This document shows positions 3 through 13,070 of a stretch of 43,717 bases of DNA, piece after piece. The notes beneath the pieces were generated by a model, which saw nothing but the letters and a program-made list of their open reading frames with translations, made no database searches and was not told the origin of the DNA. The stretch lies in contig JALXFN010000120.1 in assembly GCA_027068975.1 (NCBI GenBank), positions 647 to 44,363 on the forward strand, given 5' to 3'. This DNA is from Campylobacteraceae bacterium (GTDB lineage: Bacteria > Campylobacterota > Campylobacteria > Campylobacterales > Sulfurovaceae). Every line of letters starts with the position of its first letter. The first letter of the stretch is position 1. The translations under genes and the position numbers were made by a program.

Positions 3-737
3 CAAAAAAATTCTAAAATTTGTAGTGTTTTTCAACCATTAGATAAAGGAACAACTTTTAGAGGAAAAATAAGGTTTCATAATCTTAAAAGAGCAGAGTT
101 AGGTCTTTTACTTGCATCATTAAATTTTATAAATCAAAATGAAGAAGAGAAGTATTTTCATAAGATAGGAATGGCTAGAGCTTATGGTTTTGGAACTGTA
201 TCTATAAAGATAACTTCTTTGAAAACAAGAGAAAATCAAACTGTAGATACCTATATAGATGAATTTAAAAACTTGTTAAACAAAGAGCTAGATATTGATT
301 TATTAAAACAACCTAGAGTTGAATCCTTGTTAAAACTCTCTTCTTATACTTTTAAGGATAGTGAGTTAAGAATTATGGACTTAAAAGAGTTTGTAAAAGC
401 TAAAAAACCTAATAATAAATTTTGCTTAATAGATGTTACTGATGATGAGTTTGAGAAAACTCCAAATAGCATCTCAAGAAATAAAATGAAACAAGCCATA
501 AAACAATATTGGGATAAAAATTTTAATATCTTTTATCACCCTAATCAGATTAAAGAGTTTTTTTCAGAAAATGGTTTTGAAACTACACCAGAAGAACAGA
601 GGAATGTATATATACATAATAAGGAAGATAAAAAATTTGTTAAATTATTACAACTAATTTATTTGTTTAATGAAAAAAAACTAGATACTGAGAAATCTAA
701 AGTACTGTATGAATATTTAACTAGAGAAGATAGGTAA
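3..737 (+). CDS. Type III CRISPR RAMP protein (Cas7-like, TIGR03986 type), 5'-truncated by window edge
   Basis: The reading frame is open from base 3, before the first in-window ATG at 171, so this is the C-terminal part of a longer gene. The fragment reads QPLDKGTTFRGKIRFHNL, then a KIGMARAYGFGTV segment. This is the typical C-terminal part of RAMP (Cas7/Csm3-like) proteins, where a conserved hydrophobic core precedes a G-x-G-x-V glycine loop. Such subunits form the crRNA-binding backbone of type III effector complexes. The roughly 190 residues after the glycine loop are Lys-rich and I do not recognise them. The stop is 1 nt before the next gene, so the two are surely co-transcribed. Assignment to the III-D-like TIGR03986 family is from memory of that family, not a search. 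Cas10 and the other subunits should lie left of the window. Confidence 0.72.
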   Translation, partial: QKNSKICSVFQPLDKGTTFRGKIRFHNLKRAELGLLLASLNFINQNEEEKYFHKIGMARAYGFGTVSIKITSLKTRENQTVDTYIDEFKNLLNKELDIDLLKQPRVESLLKLSSYTFKDSELRIMDLKEFVKAKKPNNKFCLIDVTDDEFEKTPNSISRNKMKQAIKQYWDKNFNIFYHPNQIKEFFSENGFETTPEEQRNVYIHNKEDKKFVKLLQLIYLFNEKKLDTEKSKVLYEYLTREDR

Positions 738-738
738 A

Positions 739-1416
739 ATGAAAATAAAAAAAGACCTCTTAGGAGCCATAGGACTTAATGAACATGTACCATTACGGTC
801 ACTGTTTATTGTAGTTATCTTTTTGGCTTCTATTGGAATATTTGCCGATAGCATTGTTGATATTATTGAACAGCAGAGCTTTACCAAGCTTTTTATAGCC
901 TTTGGAATGTTTCTGCTGGTCTATATGTCGTACCGATACTTAGGTGAGCAGGAGTTGAAGATAGTTAAAGAACTAGCTTTAGGTAAAGAGGTGATGATAC
1001 TGGTAACCCCTTCTAATGTAAACCATTTAAAAAAGATAGTTCGTGGGCATAATTTGCATACGATTTATATTTTAAAAGAGAAAGGGTTTCCTGTTGAAGA
1101 GAGTTACGCTGAGATAAAAGAGTTTTTAAAAAGAGAGAATATAAAGCTTAAAGAGTATGTTTTAAAAAGCTTAGAGAACCCAAATGAACTACAAGAGAAC
1201 TTTAGTGCCATAGTAGAGGAGGTTAATGAAAAGAAGCATCTGTCTTTAAATATCTCTACAGGTAAAGCCTCGACCTCTATTATACTTTTTGAACTGGCAA
1301 AGTTTCATGGCATTATGGTTGAGTATCTCTCTTCTGCTTACGATAATGAAAACCACCCCATAGAGGGAACAGAACAGAACTATAACATAGACTTTTATAA
1401 GGAGTTTGCGAGATGA
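739..1416 (+). CDS. Membrane-anchored CARF-like protein (Cam1-like candidate CRISPR effector)
   Basis: This 225-residue protein has two hydrophobic helices near the N terminus (about residues 21-40 and 49-66), followed by a soluble domain. The soluble part opens with a strand VMILVTPSN (85-93) and contains LNISTGKAS (170-178). That arrangement, a first beta strand and later an N-x-[ST]-[GT]-G-K-like loop before a helix, is characteristic of CARF domains, which bind cyclic oligoadenylate. CARF proteins with N-terminal membrane helices (Cam1 family) are type III effectors that perturb the membrane; Cam1 has one membrane helix, whereas two are predicted here. The gene sits 1 nt after the RAMP gene, and its stop overlaps the start of the CARF-HEPN gene (ATGA). 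The ATG has a weak AGG ribosome site. Function is inferred; the domain call needs profile or structure confirmation. Confidence 0.65.
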   Translation: MKIKKDLLGAIGLNEHVPLRSLFIVVIFLASIGIFADSIVDIIEQQSFTKLFIAFGMFLLVYMSYRYLGEQELKIVKELALGKEVMILVTPSNVNHLKKIVRGHNLHTIYILKEKGFPVEESYAEIKEFLKRENIKLKEYVLKSLENPNELQENFSAIVEEVNEKKHLSLNISTGKASTSIILFELAKFHGIMVEYLSSAYDNENHPIEGTEQNYNIDFYKEFAR

Positions 1417-2603
1417 TAATAACAATATTAGGAACATCAGGAGCAGGTTTTAATCATAAAGATTGTACACCTAGAAAAGATGAAGAGGGAAATATACTTT
1501 TTCACGATGCAGAGTATAACAGTGATATTTTTAACATAGAAAGAAAGCGTTATAAAAATTCAACCCATTTTTTACTTGAAAATTTTGATGATGAGTTTGT
1601 TTTTATTGGTACAGTTTGTGCTATCTCTTTTCAAAAGACTATTTTAGCAGAGAGTTTAAAAGGTAAAAATGTTCAGTTTAGAACTATAGGAGACAATAGT
1701 TTAGATGATATCTTTGAAACTATTTTAGAGTTAATTCAGCATAATGATAATATTGTTTTAGATATTACTCATGGTTTTCGGCACCAGCCTATTATGGCAA
1801 TTTTTGCTTCGACACTTTCACAGTTTTTAGAGAGACGAGATTTAAAAATAATTTTTGCAAAAGAGGTTGAGAGTCATGAAAAATATGAGTATATTTATCT
1901 GAATTCATATATTGAGATAACTCAAATATCACTTTTACTTACTGGTTTTATACGAACTTTAAACTTTATACCTGTAAAAAACATGAAACTTTTAAACAAT
2001 AAAGTGTTTGAAGACTTTTCAAAGTCTCTACTTTCTAATGACCTTAAAGGGGTAGAGAGAAATTACGGTTTATTAAAAGAAGAGTTGGTAAAGTTAAAGA
2101 GTAATGAAGACTTGAAGCATATTTCTAATCTTATTGATAAAGTAAAAAATGAGTTAATTCCTTTAGAGAGATTATCTGTTTTTGAACCTTATCAGAAGTA
2201 TATTGAACTTTCTAAAGTAACAGTTGAAAAAAACTATCTTATTATCTCTTTGGCATATATTTTTGAGTCATTGAGGGAGTATTGCTCTTATCGTTTTAAA
2301 GACATCTGTGCAACCTTTGAGTTTGAAAATGATTATGTGAAAAATGATAATGTAATGAAAACTATTGGAAATTTTAGAAAAGACAATTTGATTTTAAATA
2401 GATATCGTGGACTGTATCATGCCAATAAAGAGGAGTTTAAAAAGGTTAATAAGCTTTATAATAAACTTAGAAAACGTCGTAATGCTTTGGCTCATATTAA
2501 TACTACTAGTAATTTTGAAGATATAAAACAAGATTTGAGTAGAATTATTATTCAGGTGGAGACGCTTTATGGAGATAAGGTTTTGGAGAATATTAGACGA
2601 TAG
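1413..2603 (+). CDS. CARF-HEPN ribonuclease, Csx2/TM1812 family (DxTHG motif)
   Basis: The 396-residue protein begins with a CARF-type strand MIITILGTSG and carries the diagnostic D-I-T-H-G at 117-121 of Csx2/DxTHG proteins. The C-terminal helical part ends with RNALAH (R356 to H361), the R-x4-H active site of HEPN ribonucleases. Known relatives (Csm6/Csx1/Csx2) are type III accessory RNases switched on when cyclic oligoadenylate binds the CARF domain, cleaving RNA non-specifically. The start overlaps the stop of the membrane CARF gene by four bases, implying translational coupling of two signal-responsive effectors. Both the nucleotide-binding motif and the HEPN catalytic pair look intact. 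Which cyclic oligoadenylate it recognises cannot be told from sequence. Confidence 0.85.
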   Translation: MIITILGTSGAGFNHKDCTPRKDEEGNILFHDAEYNSDIFNIERKRYKNSTHFLLENFDDEFVFIGTVCAISFQKTILAESLKGKNVQFRTIGDNSLDDIFETILELIQHNDNIVLDITHGFRHQPIMAIFASTLSQFLERRDLKIIFAKEVESHEKYEYIYLNSYIEITQISLLLTGFIRTLNFIPVKNMKLLNNKVFEDFSKSLLSNDLKGVERNYGLLKEELVKLKSNEDLKHISNLIDKVKNELIPLERLSVFEPYQKYIELSKVTVEKNYLIISLAYIFESLREYCSYRFKDICATFEFENDYVKNDNVMKTIGNFRKDNLILNRYRGLYHANKEEFKKVNKLYNKLRKRRNALAHINTTSNFEDIKQDLSRIIIQVETLYGDKVLENIRR

Positions 2604-2643: not shown

Positions 2644-2922
2644 ATGAAACTCCTACTAACCTACGACATCAGCGACACAAAAAGTAGAACCAAAGTAGCC
2701 ACCCTTTTAGAGGGGTATGGCTACCGAGTAAACTTCTCTGTTTTTGAGCTAGATATTAAAAAGTATAAACTAGAAGAGCTTTTAAAAAGCATAGAGGAGT
2801 TTTGTGATAAAGAGGATTCTATTCGTGTTTATGCTTTTTCTGCTGATACTATTGAAAAGTCTTATGATTTGAACTCTAAACGACCTAAGCCATTTGAAAA
2901 AAAGAGTAGCTATGTTAACTAA
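2644..2922 (+). CDS. cas2: CRISPR-associated endoribonuclease/integration factor Cas2
   Basis: The protein is 92 residues when started at ATG 2644, the usual Cas2 size. It opens with MKLLLTYDIS, the ferredoxin-fold first strand whose Asp is conserved in Cas2, followed by the typical G-Y-R-V-N-F-S-V-F-E segment (here G-Y-G-Y-R-V-N-F-S-V-F-E). I chose ATG 2644 over the in-frame ATG at 2629 because AAGGA lies at a good distance before it and the upstream codons add non-family residues. Cas2 forms the adaptation complex with Cas1 that integrates spacers. The gene is 40 nt after the CARF-HEPN gene, and its end overlaps the RT-Cas1 start by 11 nt, so the two adaptation proteins are translationally coupled. 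Confidence 0.92.
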   Translation: MKLLLTYDISDTKSRTKVATLLEGYGYRVNFSVFELDIKKYKLEELLKSIEEFCDKEDSIRVYAFSADTIEKSYDLNSKRPKPFEKKSSYVN

Positions 2923-5116
2923 AAAGTTTGACAAACTATTTTCGACTAAAAACTTGTTAATGACTCTTGAACTCTATAAAAAGACAAAAGGTTACCATGA
3001 AGCTAAAGAGCTTATGGCTTCTGGAGAGTTTTTAAAAAGTCTGCAGCAAGGTTATGTTCCTGACCCTATGAGTGGCTTTGAGATGCCTAAAAATAATGGA
3101 GAGATGCGTAAACTAGCTCAAGCATCTATTACGAGTAAAGTTGTTCAAAAAATTATTGCTGAGGCGTTGCTTGATAGTGTAAAATTGAATGATAAATCTT
3201 ATGCCTTTCGTAAAGGGAAAGGGGTGCTTAAAGCTGTCAACAGAACAAAAGATTTTTTAAAACGCTATTCATATATTGCTAAAGCTGATGTAGATGATTT
3301 TTTTGACTCTATTAACCAAAAGAAGCTGTTGATTATTTTACAAAAAGTCATAGAAGATAAAAAGATAATTATGCTTATTTCTCTCTTTTTAAAAAATGGA
3401 ATGATGAAGCAGAATGAATGGATAGACAAAAGCCAAGGAGTCTACCAAGGTGATGTGCTTTCACCTGTACTCTCTAACTTGTATCTGCATAGTTTTGATG
3501 AAGCTTTAGAGTCAAAAGGGATAGACTTTGTACGGTTTGCTGATGATATGCTCTTTTTTGCAAAGAGTGAGAAAGAGGCAAAAAAGAACTTAGCCATAGC
3601 TACAGCGTACCTAAAAGCTCTTGACTTAAATTTTGGAGAAGACAAATCTTACATAGCTTCGGTACATGATGGTTTTGAGTTTTTGGGTCTGCGTTTTAAA
3701 AGTAAAACCATTCAGATGGATAATGAACGGTTTCAAAAAAAGCTCTCGACCATATCTAAAAAAACAAAGAAAAAAGACCTTTATAAATCCATAACTTTTT
3801 TAAATGAGTACTTAGTAGGTATTCGTAACTACTACTTTAAAGTTCTAAGTGACAAACATCAACTCATACTTATAGCTGAACATATCGATGAGATTTTAGT
3901 TAAAAAAATTGCTTTAGCGAAGAAGAGTAAAGTCATCAACAAAAAATCGAAGTTTATTCAGATATTGGTAGAGTTGGAAGATTTGGAACACAACACAAAA
4001 GAGGAGAAACTGCGTCATGCTCACAATTTGGTAGCACGTGCTTATGAGGCATTGACTTTAGAAAAACCACTAGAGAATGCCGAAAAGAAGATGGCAAAAA
4101 AGAAGAGTAGTTTTTTACAAGAGCAGATAAGGAGTTCAGAGATTATCTTAAACCGTTTTGGGCTTTATATTAGTATGAGCAAGGGTAAGATAGTGGTTAA
4201 AGAGTATGGTAAGGTTATTCAGACTAGCCCTGTAAATTGGGTGACACGGATTATTGTCATGACCAAAGGTGTCTCTATATCTTCCAATCTTATTTTGGAG
4301 TGTTCTAAACGTAAAATAGATATAGATTTTATAGAAAAAAGCAAACCCTACGCTCAAATAACCTACTATGAAAATGTCTCTAATGAGTTGCATTTGAAAC
4401 AGTTAGATTTGAAAAACTCTAAAAAAGGTTTTAAAACAGCTCTTGCCATTATAAAAGCTAAGATGAAAAATCAGATAAATCTTCTGAAGTACAACAGTAG
4501 ATATAGAGAAACAGCTGATAAAAAAGAGTTTGAACGGTTAGATAAAATCATAGAACAGATGGAAAGCATAGCAAAGAGTGCAACCAAAGCGAAAGATGTT
4601 CCTGCTCTTATGGGTTATGAGGGTAGTCTTTCTGTTTTGTATTGGAAAGCATTTGGAATTCTTATAGATGAAAAAGATTTTAAAAGAGAGACTCAAAATG
4701 CTCCTGATGCGATTAATCAAGCGTTAAATTATGGTTATGCTTTTTTGTATCACAGACTTCAATCGGCACTACTTAAAACTGGTGTTAACATCTACCACTC
4801 TTTTTTACATACTGCTCAAGCAAACAAACCAACTCTAGTCTTTGATATGATAGAACCTTTTCGTCAACCTGTTGTAGACAGAGAGATAATCTCTATTTTA
4901 AATCGAGGAACAAAGATTAGCTCAAAGAAAGGACGTTTGACAAAAAAGAGTATAAAAGTCATTACTGAAAATGTACAAGAGAGATTAGCTACTCCTACTA
5001 AGTGGAGAAAAGGGAAGTATAAAATAGTGACTATCATAGATGAACAGGCGTTAGAGATGGCTCATGTAATTAAAGGTATAAAGTCCAATTTTAAGGGCTT
5101 TGTAGGAAAATATTAA
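2912..5116 (+). CDS. cas1: Reverse transcriptase-Cas1 fusion protein
   Basis: A 734-residue fusion. The N-terminal half is a group II intron-like reverse transcriptase: ADVDDFFDSI (about 125-134) is the first catalytic Asp region, VYQGDVLSP (177-185) the motif 4 region and RFADD (208-212) the catalytic box. A maturase-like helical linker follows (about 280-400). From about 410 to the end is Cas1, with the N-terminal beta domain and the catalytic set E570 (GYEGS), H633 (SFLHT) and D645/E648 (VFDMIEPFR). All catalytic residues look intact. I prefer ATG 2912, with a GAG upstream, over TTG 2894 six codons earlier. No Cas6 domain is fused. Characterised RT-Cas1/Cas2 complexes can acquire spacers from RNA; that activity here is inference. 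Confidence 0.95.
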   Translation: MLTKKFDKLFSTKNLLMTLELYKKTKGYHEAKELMASGEFLKSLQQGYVPDPMSGFEMPKNNGEMRKLAQASITSKVVQKIIAEALLDSVKLNDKSYAFRKGKGVLKAVNRTKDFLKRYSYIAKADVDDFFDSINQKKLLIILQKVIEDKKIIMLISLFLKNGMMKQNEWIDKSQGVYQGDVLSPVLSNLYLHSFDEALESKGIDFVRFADDMLFFAKSEKEAKKNLAIATAYLKALDLNFGEDKSYIASVHDGFEFLGLRFKSKTIQMDNERFQKKLSTISKKTKKKDLYKSITFLNEYLVGIRNYYFKVLSDKHQLILIAEHIDEILVKKIALAKKSKVINKKSKFIQILVELEDLEHNTKEEKLRHAHNLVARAYEALTLEKPLENAEKKMAKKKSSFLQEQIRSSEIILNRFGLYISMSKGKIVVKEYGKVIQTSPVNWVTRIIVMTKGVSISSNLILECSKRKIDIDFIEKSKPYAQITYYENVSNELHLKQLDLKNSKKGFKTALAIIKAKMKNQINLLKYNSRYRETADKKEFERLDKIIEQMESIAKSATKAKDVPALMGYEGSLSVLYWKAFGILIDEKDFKRETQNAPDAINQALNYGYAFLYHRLQSALLKTGVNIYHSFLHTAQANKPTLVFDMIEPFRQPVVDREIISILNRGTKISSKKGRLTKKSIKVITENVQERLATPTKWRKGKYKIVTIIDEQALEMAHVIKGIKSNFKGFVGKY

Positions 5117-5124
5117 ACCATTTT

Positions 5125-5471
5125 AGTTTGCGAACTTTTTAGCTAAGTTTAGATTAAGCTAAAACTCATGGAAAGTCCGATATTTCGGACTCTCCTATTT
5201 TTTTACCCCTATTACAAAAAGTTCGCAAACCTCAATTTTTTTCAGAAATAAAATCAGTTTGCGAACTTTTATTTTCGTTTAAGTTTCAAATGCCTATTTT
5301 ATGGGCTTTAAAAAAGTGCAAAAATGCTAAAAGTTCGTAAACTCCTAGTTTTCACTACAACACAAAAGAGTTTGCGAACTTTTTTTGATGGCTAAAGCCC
5401 TAAAGTTAGGCACTTTAAGAAAAAAACAAGCCAAGTTGGTGTATCATAAACCTTGAGTTTGCGAACTTTTT
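5125..5471. repeat. Six copies of AGTTTGCGAACTTTT in the CRISPR leader (four direct, two inverted)
   Basis: Direct copies start at 5125, 5256, 5369 and 5456. Inverted copies (AAAAAGTTCGCAAAC and AAAAGTTCGTAAACT) are at 5216-5230 and 5329-5343. The inverted-direct pairs 5216/5256 and 5329/5369 have the same internal 40-nt offset and are 113 nt apart, so they look like a duplicated long stem-loop with 14-16 bp arms. The core GTTTGCGAAC is itself nearly palindromic. Possible roles are protein binding in the leader, RNA structure, or a small mobile repeat. None is established. Confidence 0.85.
5170..5204 (+). terminator. Rho-independent terminator of the cas operon
   Basis: GGAAAGTCCGA (5170-5180) pairs with TCGGACTCTCC (5185-5195) around a TATT loop, with one mismatch in 11 pairs, followed by a T run (5198-5204). 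It lies 53 nt after the RT-Cas1 stop and would separate cas mRNA from the pre-crRNA transcript. Confidence 0.75.
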
Positions 5472-5548
5472 CGTAAAGTTCCATAAATTGGTACTGTTAA
5501 GTGGTTTGAAAGTATGAGATACTTTAGATGTTTCCCACAATATAAGCT

Positions 5549-7134
5549 ATGACCCGACTGTAGAGATACGATAGGGGATTGAAACACCGTGCGCAATTTT
5601 TTCCTGTCTCAGTGTCATTTATGACCCGACTGTAGAGATACGATAGGGGATTGAAACCTACCAACACAGAACCAGAATCACCAGGCTCTGTAATGACCCG
5701 ACTGTAGAGATACGATAGGGGATTGAAACAAAGACACCAATAAAGGCGCCGATGCAGAAGAAAACTATGACCCGACTGTAGAGATACGATAGGGGATTGA
5801 AACATAATTTTCTCAGTGCATTCATCACTATTAGTTGTCATTATGACCCGACTGTAGAGATACGATAGGGGATTGAAACGTTTTTTCATAACAGGAAAGA
5901 ATCCCTTATGTTTTGGGTAATGACCCGACTGTAGAGATACGATAGGGGATTGAAACAGGCTCTAGAGAGCTCCAATTTCTTACAAATAATTCATGACCCG
6001 ACTGTAGAGATACGATAGGGGATTGAAACAATTCATTTTTTCTCCTTTTTTATTTTTTTTATAAATCATGACCCGACTGTAGAGATACGATAGGGGATTG
6101 AAACACCTGTGGGTTTGTTTTTTAATCAAGTTTTTCAATGACCCGACTGTAGAGATACGATAGGGGATTGAAACAAACACAAATTTATTATTTTCAAGAT
6201 AATTACTATATGACCCGACTGTAGAGATACGATAGGGGATTGAAACAGAACATACCAATAACTTCCAAAAAAATTCTTACTTCATGACCCGACTGTAGAG
6301 ATACGATAGGGGATTGAAACACTATGGCTGCACTTCCAGCCGATACCTCTTTCATTTATGACCCGACTGTAGAGATACGATAGGGGATTGAAACGCTACA
6401 ACTGCTAAAAATAATATTTTTTTCATTTATGACCCGACTGTAGAGATACGATAGGGGATTGAAACATTATAATATTCTCCTATTCCAAACTCTGTTTGCT
6501 GGCAATGACCCGACTGTAGAGATACGATAGGGGATTGAAACGCCAAACCCAATTGCGAAGTCACCTGTAAAAGTCTGACTATGACCCGACTGTAGAGATA
6601 CGATAGGGGATTGAAACTTTCGGTTGATTTCATAGCTAATTCAATGACTCTATCCTCATGACCCGACTGTAGAGATACGATAGGGGATTGAAACATATTC
6701 TGTAATATCGGCCGAAGCCGGATTTGCTGCCAAATGACCCGACTGTAGAGATACGATAGGGGATTGAAACTGTTTTTTCTCCTCCTTTCCGACCTTCTAG
6801 ATATATGACCCGACTGTAGAGATACGATAGGGGATTGAAACTTAAACAAATGAGGTTTAAGGTACCCATCCCTGTATGACCCGACTGTAGAGATACGATA
6901 GGGGATTGAAACGCTACTGTTAAAATACATTTGATGGTTGGGAAACCATCATATGACCCGACTGTAGAGATACGATAGGGGATTGAAACTTCTGGATTAA
7001 TGAAAGTTTTAAAAACTTTCACACTGCATGACCCGACTGTAGAGATACGATAGGGGATTGAAACATCACAAGACCTTCACCAAGGTTCACTAGCGAACCC
7101 AACAAATGACCCGACTGTAGAGATACGATAGGGG
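5549..7134 (+). CRISPR. CRISPR array: 22 repeats of 37 nt, 21 spacers of 33-41 nt
   Basis: The repeat begins ATGACCCGACTG and ends GGGGATTGAAAC. Copies start at 5549, 5621, 5693, 5767, 5843, 5920, 5993, 6068, 6138, 6210, 6284, 6358, 6429, 6505, 6581, 6658, 6734, 6805, 6876, 6953, 7028 and 7106. The first 21 appear identical. The last keeps 29 nt and then diverges from GATTGAAAC. ATTGAAAC is the classic 8-nt type III crRNA 5' handle, so transcription is rightward and the leader is on the left. Variable spacer lengths centred near 37 are usual for type III. Palindromy in the repeat is weak (CCC...GGGG, GTA-gaga-TAC). Several spacers read, on the opposite strand, as gene starts (see findings). 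No spacer was seen to match the rest of the window by eye. Confidence 0.98.
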
Positions 7135-7142
7135 GGGTTATT
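7106..7142 (+). repeat. Degenerate terminal CRISPR repeat
   Basis: The first 29 nt match the consensus through AGGGG, then GGTTATTA replaces GATTGAAAC. Loss of the 3' part at the leader-distal end is typical of the oldest repeat and confirms array polarity. A crRNA handle would not form here. Confidence 0.85.
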
Positions 7143-7177
7143 ATTTGAATATATTATCATTTATTTATGCGAATAAA

Positions 7178-7318
7178 GGGCAGACACGGAGGTCGCCCCT
7201 ACATGGTCGCTAAGATTAAAGTAACATGGTTTTGTGAAGGGGTTTTTTATTTACAATGGAAAGAATTAAATGCTCTTTCAACCCAAACGGCACGTAGGGG
7301 CGACCTCCGTGTCTGCCC
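7178..7318. repeat. REP-like inverted pair (REPIN-like element 1)
   Basis: The 25-nt sequence at 7178-7202 (GGGCAGACACGG through CGCCCCTAC) is the exact reverse complement of 7294-7318 (GTAGGGGCGACC through GTCTGCCC). Each copy has a GTAG head and an imperfect internal palindrome (GGGC-GAC...GTC-GCCC), the layout of REP sequences mobilised by RAYT transposases. The 91 nt between the arms has no supported gene. No transposase is in the window. Confidence 0.8.
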
Positions 7319-7383
7319 AATGCCCAAAATGCCAATAAATTTCAAATGTTTTTGAATGGGTAATTTTTTAATATTTATATATA

Positions 7384-7452
7384 CGTAGGGTCGATTTATC
7401 GACCATAGAATAAGCATTCATTTAAATCATTGGTCGGTAAACCGACCCTACG
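7384..7452. repeat. REP-like inverted pair (REPIN-like element 2)
   Basis: GTAGGGTCGATTTATCGACC (from 7385) and, inverted, GGTCGGTAAACCGACCCTAC (7432-7451) form a pair matching at 20 of 22 positions including the flanks. Each half is itself a hairpin (GGTCGAT/ATCGACC and GGTCGGT/ACCGACC), and the differences between halves preserve pairing within each hairpin. This suggests selection on structure or independent replication as REP units. Confidence 0.8.
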
Positions 7453-7493
7453 CGAAAAGTTTTATAGAGACAAAACTTGTCATATCTTTACGT

Positions 7494-7912: not shown

Positions 7913-8299
7913 ATGAAAAAAATTTGTCTACTCTTCTCTCATAATCTTACAGCTGAACAGAAGTTTGATATAGAGAATAAGTTAGAGGTAAAAGAGGTAT
8001 ATAGTCTACCTGAGAAACTTCAAGATTTATGGTCGCAAGTACCAACCGATAGAGATTTGAAGTTTGGTAAATATTTAGCAGAAATAGAACTATTTTTAAA
8101 CACAACACTTAGCAAAGGAGACTATGTTTTAATACAAGGAGACTTTGGTGCTAGTTACCATATGATTAACTTCTGTAAAGAGCATGGGTTTGTACCTGTT
8201 TACTCTGTCAACAGTCGTCTATCACGTGAGGTTATAGAGAATGGAATAGTTAAAAAGTATTCAGAGTTCAAGCATGAATGTTTTAGGGAGTATGAGTAA
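7913..8299 (+). CDS. csx20: Csx20-like CRISPR accessory protein (putative ring nuclease)
   Basis: 128 residues. It starts KKICLLFSHNLTAEQ, has LPEKLQDLWSQVP near 33-45, a central GDYVLIQGDFGASY (about 69-82), and then FVPVYSVNSR. This combination resembles the Csx20 family as I remember it. Csx20 is grouped with small CARF-related proteins predicted to cleave cyclic oligoadenylate and so switch off type III signalling. AAGGA precedes the ATG at good spacing. Its stop overlaps the start of the WYL regulator (TAATG). A ring nuclease fits well with the two CARF effectors on the other side of the array. Family assignment is from memory; enzymatic activity is inference. Confidence 0.65.
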   Translation: MKKICLLFSHNLTAEQKFDIENKLEVKEVYSLPEKLQDLWSQVPTDRDLKFGKYLAEIELFLNTTLSKGDYVLIQGDFGASYHMINFCKEHGFVPVYSVNSRLSREVIENGIVKKYSEFKHECFREYE

Positions 8300-9255
8300 T
8301 GACAAAGCATGAAGCATTAAATATTTTAGGTAAGCGTCTTATGGCTGGTGAGAGAATTTCTAGTGCTAATACAGAGCTATTAGAACAAGAAGGTAAGCCT
8401 TGTTCTTCAAAAACACTTAAGCGTTATTTGCAGGAGTTGAGTGACAGATATGGACTAAGAGAGGTTAAAGAGGGTAGAACGGTATATTATAGTTTGGAGA
8501 GAGAGATTTCAAATATTGTACATGAGTATCTCTCTACTACAGAGGATATGTCGTGGCTTGTGCAGATGATTAACAGTTCAGACAAAACACTTTGGGCAAA
8601 GTTGGAGGAGGATACTAAAAAGAGATTAGAAAATATTTTATCTAGTGAGAAAGATATTTTTCTTTATCAAAACTCACCATTTGAGGTTTTTGAAGATGAT
8701 ACACATAAGCAGATTTTTAGGTCATTAAAATCTGCAGTAAAAAACAATGAGTACAGAGATATCGATTATGAATATAATAATACAACACTATTGGAAGAGT
8801 TGCAGTGTTTAAAACTTATATTTATGGAGAACAACTGGTATGTTGCTGTTGCTACCAAAGAGAAGAGGGTTCTTTTTTTACGTTTATCTTTTATTAAAAA
8901 GGTTACATATTCATCTAAAAGCACATATAAGGCATCTCAACTTAATAGATATATTGATTTTTTTAAAACATACCAAAATGCAATGACACGCTATGGAGTT
9001 GAGAAGCAAAAAGCCCATATTGTAGCAAGTTCAAAAGTAGCAAAATATTTTAAACCAAATATGAAAAAGTTTCTTTCCTCTCAAACATACATTAGAGAAA
9101 ATGAAGATGGCAGTGTAGAGTTTACACTTGAGTATACACAACCTTTAGAAATTTTACCTCTCATTAAAAAATGGATGCCTGATTTAAAAATAGTCTCTCC
9201 AAAATCTTTAGACGATACATTACGAGCGGACCTACAGAGCTATTTAGATAACTAA
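8299..9255 (+). CDS. WYL-domain transcriptional regulator
   Basis: 318 residues. The N-terminal region (about 1-70) reads as a winged helix-turn-helix (KTLKRYLQELSDRYGL). The middle holds the WYL domain core MENNWYVAVATKEKRVLFLR (about 175-194), and a C-terminal WCX-like extension follows (about 245-318). WYL proteins often sit in or beside CRISPR and other defence loci, where they sense nucleic acid or nucleotide ligands and regulate expression. The start overlaps the csx20 stop (TAATG), so they are translationally coupled, and a strong terminator follows. Target promoters are unknown; the cas operon, the leader or csx20 itself are the obvious candidates. Confidence 0.85.
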   Translation: MTKHEALNILGKRLMAGERISSANTELLEQEGKPCSSKTLKRYLQELSDRYGLREVKEGRTVYYSLEREISNIVHEYLSTTEDMSWLVQMINSSDKTLWAKLEEDTKKRLENILSSEKDIFLYQNSPFEVFEDDTHKQIFRSLKSAVKNNEYRDIDYEYNNTTLLEELQCLKLIFMENNWYVAVATKEKRVLFLRLSFIKKVTYSSKSTYKASQLNRYIDFFKTYQNAMTRYGVEKQKAHIVASSKVAKYFKPNMKKFLSSQTYIRENEDGSVEFTLEYTQPLEILPLIKKWMPDLKIVSPKSLDDTLRADLQSYLDN

Positions 9256-11563: not shown

Positions 11564-13070
11564 AAAAATATTAATTTCACTGCTAATCTCTATGTTTATG
11601 GTTGGTTGTGGGAAAAGTAATGACTCAGTTGGCTTGAGTAGTCCATTAGAGAGAACTATAGCAGATAGTAGTAAATATAGTGACTCTTTAAAAACAGATG
11701 AAGAGGGTAGAGTTGATATGTCTGCAGTTCTTGCTTCTCATTCAATTGTCAAATCACCTAAAATAAAAAGCATTATAGAGGTTAAAGACAGTATGGGTGA
11801 ACCTCTTTCTAACATAGAGGTTGCCTATGTTATAGATAAAGAAAAAGAGAGTATAGACCTGCGTTATAGTGACCCAAGTGAGAACTTGACCACACTCTAT
11901 CAACATTTATCACTTAAGGAGAATAATGTTACGCAAAACAAAGTTCAATATGACTCTCCATTACTTCTAAGGTTTCTAAGTCGTGCTGTTTTACGCTCTG
12001 TGCTTGTGTATGATACAGCCAGTACCATAAAGGCAAGTTATGACCTTTTTAATGTGGAGATAGAGTATGAGAAGAGTGAAGATGAAGTAGTTTTTGAGGG
12101 TACAGTTTCTGAATTTTATACTTTCTTTGATGGTTTAAGTAATTTAAAGCATCTTCCTTTTGCTCTTAGTCATAATGTTGTAAAACTAGCAAAAGTAAGT
12201 TCTGCAAAAGGAGCTATTAAGTTTAACAGTAAAGTAGTAAGACATCTATTTTTAGAATTTTTAAAAGAGTTGGGTGGTTATGCTTTGGTTAACAATGAGA
12301 GTAAAGTTAGAATCACTCTACACAAGTTTGACAAAGAGAGTGGATTTTTTAGTATTGATTTAGTTGAAGAGAAGATTGATGATGGGATAGAGCGAGAGTT
12401 ATATGACATAATCATTACACAAAATGGAGATATTGACCATAAGTTTGACTATCCCGTTTTAGATAATGTTGAACCTGAGTTTAAAGGTAGGGTTGTAGTA
12501 AGAGATATCTCTTATGAGATATTTAAGGCAGAGAGTAGTTATAGAGCTGTAGAAGTTTTAAAAAATGTTCCTTTGAGTCAAGGCGATATCCTAAAAGTAA
12601 TGGTTGTAGACAAAGATATGGCATATGATGATGATATTAGTTCTGTTGAAGTAATTTTTGATGGTGTTGGCGAGGAGTTATATGAAGATGAATTTAGTAC
12701 AACTAAGATAGAGTTTTTAAAAGCAGGTAGTACTCCTGTAAAGAGAGCAAAAAAGTATGACCTTAATATAAGTATTAACGCGATAGAAGATGTAAAATAT
12801 GATGCTTTTGGGAATGCTCCAGATTTTACTGGTACAATAATACTCTCTAGTGGACATTTTCACATAGAAGAGGAGGTTGATAGTTTTGTCAATAAGAAAA
12901 TTATTAAAGACGTCCCTATAGAGATGGGAGAGGATATTACTGTTAAGATTATTGATAAAGATATATGGTTTGATGATGACATTATTGAGTTTAATTTTAT
13001 ATTTGATGGAAAGGCTTATCATGAAGAGAATAGACTTGCTAAGGTAGATATTGGATTTAAGCCCCAATAA
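11553..13070 (+). CDS. Large lipoprotein with two tandem acidic (C2-like?) repeats
   Basis: 505 residues with signal peptide and lipobox MVGC near residue 19. The C-terminal third contains two related units. The first has FKGRVVVRDIS, later VPLSQGDILKVMVVDKDM and DDDISSVEVIFDG. The second has FTGTIILSSGH, later VPIEMGEDITVKIIDKDI and DDDIIEFNFIFDG. The shared V-x-D-K-D-x3-D-D-D-I signature puts clustered Asp residues in loops, as in calcium-binding C2-type beta sandwiches, but this is a resemblance only. The start overlaps the preceding lipoprotein gene by 11 nt. The last 14 bp overlap the convergent lpxB gene. I recognise no full-length family. Confidence 0.75.
   Translation: MNYKKILISLLISMFMVGCGKSNDSVGLSSPLERTIADSSKYSDSLKTDEEGRVDMSAVLASHSIVKSPKIKSIIEVKDSMGEPLSNIEVAYVIDKEKESIDLRYSDPSENLTTLYQHLSLKENNVTQNKVQYDSPLLLRFLSRAVLRSVLVYDTASTIKASYDLFNVEIEYEKSEDEVVFEGTVSEFYTFFDGLSNLKHLPFALSHNVVKLAKVSSAKGAIKFNSKVVRHLFLEFLKELGGYALVNNESKVRITLHKFDKESGFFSIDLVEEKIDDGIERELYDIIITQNGDIDHKFDYPVLDNVEPEFKGRVVVRDISYEIFKAESSYRAVEVLKNVPLSQGDILKVMVVDKDMAYDDDISSVEVIFDGVGEELYEDEFSTTKIEFLKAGSTPVKRAKKYDLNISINAIEDVKYDAFGNAPDFTGTIILSSGHFHIEEEVDSFVNKKIIKDVPIEMGEDITVKIIDKDIWFDDDIIEFNFIFDGKAYHEENRLAKVDIGFKPQ

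Follow-up and report, generated by a model that had tools for sequence, protein, structure and literature searches.

The window analysed here is a 43,717-nucleotide stretch from a Campylobacteraceae bacterium (contig JALXFN010000120.1 of assembly GCA_027068975.1), and its left part carries a clustered regularly interspaced short palindromic repeats (CRISPR) array that belongs to a reverse transcriptase (RT)-Cas1 type III-D CRISPR-Cas system in a relative of Campylobacter. Pooling this array with related arrays reveals antisense translation start sites in the spacers far above chance, and the excess is also present in type III arrays of genomes without RT-Cas1.

The RT-Cas1 locus and its array

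The adaptation module consists of an RT domain fused to Cas1, with Cas2 adjoining (RVT_1 E 9e-31, Cas_Cas1 E 2.5e-57, Cas2 E 8e-19; Table 1). Some RT-Cas1 proteins bear an N-terminal Cas6 domain, whereas a search for one in this fusion (2894..5116) found none, and Cas6 is a separate gene in the effector operon at the end of contig C10. That contig end carries Cas6, Cas10d, Cas7, Cas5, Csx19 and the start of another Cas7, which continues at the start of contig C120; we infer that the two ends form one III-D operon, the contigs being unjoined in the assembly. The type III-D effector set (Cas10d, Cas5-IIID, multiple Cas7-IIID and Csx19) is found across these two ends. On C120, before and into the window start, a Cas7-IIID gene whose start lies on another contig occupies two overlapping frames (L074 282-662 and 634-1383), reflecting a frameshift or an assembly error.

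Table 1. Features of the locus, in window coordinates
Feature	Position	Strand	Remarks
Type III-D Cas7-like effector subunit, C-terminal part	3..737	+	truncated by the left edge of the window
CARF-like protein	739..1416	+	CARF models, weak, best E 3.7e-7
Csx1/Csm6-like CARF-HEPN ribonuclease	1413..2603	+	E 1.5e-45
Cas2	2644..2922	+	
RT-Cas1 fusion	2894..5116	+	RT residues 65-267 (RFADD motif), Cas1 residues 418-695
Leader side (RT-Cas1 stop to first repeat)	5117..5548	+	repeated GTTTGCGAAC motifs
CRISPR array	5549..7142	+	21 exact 37-nt repeats (ATGACCCGACTGTAGAGATACGATAGGGGATTGAAAC) and one degenerate last repeat; 21 spacers
Spacer 1	5586..5620	-	reverse complement starts AAATG, then open frame MTLRQEKIAHG
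Spacer 4	5804..5842	-	reverse complement starts AATG, then open frame MTTNSDECTEKI
Spacer 5	5880..5919	-	3' end of reverse complement is ATGAAAAAAC
Spacer 7	6030..6067	-	reverse complement has AAGGAG-AAAAA-ATG, a full initiation site
Spacer 11	6321..6357	-	reverse complement starts AAATG, then open frame MKEVSAGSAAI
Spacer 12	6395..6428	-	reverse complement encodes MKKILFLAVV
Spacer 13	6466..6504	-	AGGAG near 3' end of reverse complement; start codon, if any, outside the spacer
Spacer 17	6771..6804	-	AAAGGAGGAG near 3' end of reverse complement
Csx20-like type III accessory protein	7913..8299	+	E 2.4e-43
WYL/WCX-domain regulator	8299..9255	+	

The array has the form of a type III array: its repeat, unique to it within its own genome, ends in ATTGAAAC, the usual 5' handle of type I and type III CRISPR RNAs (crRNAs), its spacers measure 33-41 nt and centre near 36-38 nt, and its crRNAs are complementary to mRNA. 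Most related arrays share with this one the bases that immediately precede its initial repeat (..GGCT or AAGCT), which fixes the array direction with the leader on the left; the array is therefore transcribed rightward, and its crRNAs base-pair with the reverse-complement sequences translated in the preliminary description. Within the leader region (5117-5480), GTTTGCGAACTTTT additionally recurs several times in direct orientation, and AAAAGTTCGCAAAC as the inverted form. Directly after the array end, at ~7177-7460, lie two long inverted repeats (GGGCAGACACGGAGGTCGCCCCTAC with its complement, and CGTAGGGTCG with CGACCCTACG) that resemble small mobile elements. Elsewhere, a lone leader end with a single repeat and no array is found at L214 ~2034-2100 (G563 contig C182), in a genome that also holds a full array of the same kind.

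Start-site motifs and strand orientation in RT-Cas1 arrays

The preliminary description had read several window spacers as antisense to translation starts, and its particulars hold: the coordinates and reverse-strand peptides of spacers 1, 4, 11 and 12 are as it gave them, and the initiation site in spacer 7 and the end of spacer 5 were both confirmed on the reverse complement. Shine-Dalgarno cores (AGGAG/GGAGG) occur antisense in spacers 7, 13 and 17 and in sense orientation in none of the window spacers. It had also placed ATG within the first 3 nt of four reversed spacers; reversed spacer 19, which starts ATGATGG and had escaped it, brings the count at offsets 0-2 to 5/21. Dinucleotide shuffles of the 21 spacers give a mean of 1.65, so that this register is borderline within the window (P 0.016 for five, 0.067 for four), and it fails among relatives, where 476 spacers of other RT-Cas1 arrays hold 23 ATG at offsets 0-2 and the remaining offsets average 35.6. 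Counted over all positions, the reversed window spacers contain no surplus of ATG either (14 versus 15.5 in shuffles). The register is no general feature but is due to chance or peculiar to this array.

For a broader test, RT-Cas1 relatives were located in genomes of the same phylum (Campylobacterota), and their neighbouring arrays were extracted, oriented by repeat end and leader, and cleared of near-duplicates, yielding 503 spacers from 34 RT-Cas1 loci, a few of them with a damaged or contig-split RT-Cas1 (L070, L071, L072, L073). A start-site motif, defined as a Shine-Dalgarno core 3-9 nt ahead of ATG after the first arrays had been seen, is antisense relative to the crRNA in 43/503 spacers and sense in 3/503; two alternative definitions point in the same direction. 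Antisense motifs outnumber sense motifs in 17 loci, and the reverse holds in none. The RT-Cas1 motif rate of 8.9% (95% confidence interval 5.5-11.2% by bootstrap over arrays) is 3.3-4.5 fold over the DNA background, random windows of host loci and two Campylobacter phages carrying the motif in 2.0-2.7% on either strand.

Purine-rich reversed spacers might yield AGGAG and ATG by themselves, and the narrow register, with its four of 21 and its failure to replicate, fits such an effect of base composition. The pooled count speaks against it: dinucleotide shuffles of the reversed RT-Cas1 spacers, which preserve composition, contain 12.9 +- 3.5 motifs (maximum 27 in 200), placing the observed 43 ~8 standard deviations above them. 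Chance is refuted for the pooled signal and stands for ATG at offsets 0-2; as an account of the whole it is very improbable.

The position of ATG within the spacers shows no footprint-like peak, the placement being uniform (Kolmogorov-Smirnov P = 0.13); the spacers therefore do not start at ATG, and a ribosome-footprint register was rejected. An origin in 5' untranslated regions was likewise rejected, AT content upstream of the Shine-Dalgarno core being equal to background. T-runs lie upstream of the core in 6/22 cases (27%), compared with 3-5% at random start sites, a post-hoc observation on a small sample.

Orientation was estimated independently of the motif by a codon-usage classifier trained on long open reading frames (ORFs) of the fetched loci, which, when tested on host and phage ORFs kept out of the training, assigns 79-80% of spacer-sized windows to the correct coding strand. 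By this indirect estimate, which assumes a coding origin of the spacers, 80.5% of RT-Cas1 spacers are antisense, or about 100% after correction for accuracy; the window array alone scores 71% of its 21 spacers as antisense. The earlier claim that rightward crRNAs would base-pair with sense mRNA is borne out by both the pooled motif and the classifier.

Type III arrays without RT-Cas1 and the hairpin excess

Type III arrays from genomes without RT-Cas1 were gathered in two sets by a Cas10 search and a repeat-pattern search, the spacers of G117, G395, G047, G336, G053, G014 and part of G013 being taken from the sequence matches. Seven genomes of the first set lack RVT_1 altogether, and in the second set G117 and G053 have unfused RT-like matches. 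Most of the genomes are draft assemblies, which leaves some doubt that RT-Cas1 is truly absent. Of their 206 spacers, 13 carry the motif antisense and one carries it sense, a frequency higher than the 2.7% DNA background (P 0.004) and than that of the other arrays (P 0.0006); the difference from RT-Cas1 arrays (46/544) is not significant (P 0.37). The seven genomes without RVT_1 contribute 7/107 antisense and 0/107 sense. Non-type-III arrays, set apart from the type III GGGGATTGARAC kind informally by repeat form and surroundings, carry 12/934 antisense and 6/934 sense motifs, the orientation of some being uncertain and the counts having also been made on both strands.

The classifier gives a parallel picture, with 77% of 123 scored spacers from type III arrays without RT-Cas1 called antisense (about 95% corrected) against 52% in non-type-III arrays (about 53%). 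By these statistics RT and RT-free type III cannot be told apart, and the targeting of start sites seems to be characteristic of type III arrays in Campylobacterota. One natural RT-loss comparison departs from this pattern: L111 and L112, which share the repeat type and hold the closest relatives of the window Cas1 without RT, carry one antisense and one sense motif in 71 spacers, and 58% of their spacers are called antisense (about 63% corrected).

RT-Cas1 spacers are enriched in hairpins as well as in start sites, yet the two signals part ways across groups. A perfect stem of at least 7 bp is present in 9.5% of RT-Cas1 spacers, whereas shuffled spacers give 1.7% and random windows of host and phage DNA 2.7-3.8%, and 71% of the spacer hairpins have loops of 3-5 nt versus 39-49% in natural DNA; in the window, perfect hairpins are present in spacers 19 (6913-6952) and 20 (6990-7027). 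Such stems are found in 5/71 spacers (7%) of L111/L112, in 4/123 (3.3%) of RT-free type III (P 0.027 versus RT-Cas1) and in 2.1% of other arrays, so the hairpin excess follows the RT-Cas1 lineage, including its RT-less sisters, and not type III as such. Terminators were ruled out as the hairpin source, a T-run lying on the mRNA side in only 2/85 stems, and snap-back priming was rejected as well, with stems within 1 nt of a spacer end in 16/48 cases versus 24-33% in natural DNA.

These hairpins bear on the proposal that type III adaptation favours single-stranded nucleic acid that is structured and lies close to gene starts, which would produce both the start-site and the hairpin excess. The type III-A system of Streptococcus thermophilus, which has no RT, offers a parallel: the review PMC9048733 reports its spacers to be over-represented at hairpins and in the stretch 10-50 bp downstream of start codons, and the stem excess in RT-Cas1 arrays and their RT-less sisters agrees with it. 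According to the same review, however, the S. thermophilus spacers derive from the coding strand and are not directly defensive; they were measured at acquisition, while those described here belong to standing arrays and have the opposite orientation. The other RT-free type III arrays, moreover, show the start-site excess without a hairpin excess, and just five spacers combine a hairpin with a start-site motif. A preference for structure is quite unlikely to account for the pattern.

Sources of the spacers and origin of the biases

Direct tracing of the spacers gave little: searches of the window array against phages (distant ones) returned one 23-nt chance match and no convincing protospacer, six codon-degenerate patterns of its spacers found no convincing match in viral contigs, and 175 family genomes held no convincing protospacer apart from a resemblance of spacer 12. 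This spacer is 91% identical over 35 nt to a gene start in the same genome (L213 ~2816-2850, equal to G000 contig C74:128316-128350) and in three genomes of the same genus; the gene has a Shine-Dalgarno sequence, a TTG start and a signal-peptide-like product, and the likeness may mean that AT-rich signal peptides have converged or that the spacer derives from self or near-self DNA. The 40-spacer L063 array likewise gave no convincing protospacer against phages, plasmids and 153 genomes. Its spacers 1 and 3 (12183-12450) come from one site, offset by one base, as if independently acquired twice. The spacer source of RT-Cas1 systems has been called enigmatic, protospacers being rarely found (PMC5513706).

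The preliminary description had proposed that the spacers were captured from mRNA 5' regions. In this scheme, RT-Cas1 would take up mRNA 5' fragments, for example ribosome-shielded initiation regions, and insert the cDNA always the same way round; start sites and antisense orientation would then both be determined at acquisition. RT-Cas1 systems are known to acquire spacers from RNA (reviewed in PMC9048733), and the start-site excess and near-complete orientation of RT-Cas1 arrays, the hint from T-runs and, mainly, the absence of both signals from the RT-less sisters L111/L112 speak for it. The proposal is nonetheless left unsupported by the genomes without RT-Cas1, including the seven without RVT_1, which show the same signals, and by the uniform ATG placement; characterised RT-Cas1 systems, furthermore, insert spacers either way round (PMC11014452) and favour neither strand of ordinary genes (PMC9048733). 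Because relatives without RT show the same pattern, the signature is not proof of RNA-copied spacers, and we consider capture by RT-Cas1 unlikely.

The reading that we favour, as moderately probable, is that the crRNAs are mRNA-complementary, that their antisense orientation arises by selection, and that the pull towards start sites is shared by type III systems with and without RT-Cas1 instead of stemming from RT capture. The gene content, the orientation and the start-site excess, including its presence in genomes without RT-Cas1, are direct results of the analysis, whereas selection as the cause and the source of the start-site pull are inferences. A type III complex fires only on a transcript with which its guide can pair, and the near-complete orientation is most likely due to selection removing spacers unable to do so. 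Selection best explains the orientation because RT-free type III arrays share it and because, in an RT-free Thermus type III system, a phage experiment showed strand bias arising by selection (PMC7515739). Start sites, covered ~3-4 times as often as random gene sampling would give, may be favoured because guides are retained that match the accessible 5' part of phage mRNAs, which is made first, because short, dense early genes are targeted, or because type III acquisition prefers sites near starts, as PMC9048733 describes for S. thermophilus.

Several observations weigh against this selection-based reading. L111/L112 show neither the start-site nor the orientation signal, as an effect of the RT would predict, and neither signal grows with spacer age, giving no direct sign of slow selection. 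Random placement along genes, in turn, would require a mean gene length of ~170-190 nt to produce the excess, making short genes alone a strained account. A rather unlikely alternative is that, in the RT-Cas1 clade, initiation regions of mRNAs and small hairpins are captured from RNA by the integrase itself, which inserts the cDNA one way, the sisters having lost this ability together with the RT; if so, nearly every new spacer would be born antisense, and many would cover start sites.

Among characterised systems, the RT-Cas1 type III-D system of Vibrio vulnificus resembles the present one in the length class of its spacers but, according to the review PMC9048733, acquired spacers without strand bias outside rRNA genes, whereas the natural arrays here are almost wholly antisense. 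Marinomonas mediterranea shares the RT-Cas1/Cas2 adaptation module but has a different effector subtype (III-B) and integrates in either orientation (PMC11014452). A general type III preference for mRNA-complementary guides, averaging about 65% (~2:1), was described by Vink et al. 2021 (PMC8482600); the arrays here approach 100% by an indirect classifier and add start-site enrichment, and the term 'start codon' is absent from the text of that paper. Our literature search found no paper on natural type III spacers covering start sites.

The class of source can thus be read from the spacers without any protospacer: coding mRNA, in antisense, with an over-representation of start sites. Since RT-free type III arrays carry this signature too, finding it in standing arrays must not count as evidence of RNA capture, and setting RT against RT-free arrays provides the frame for a clean test between selection and biased acquisition.
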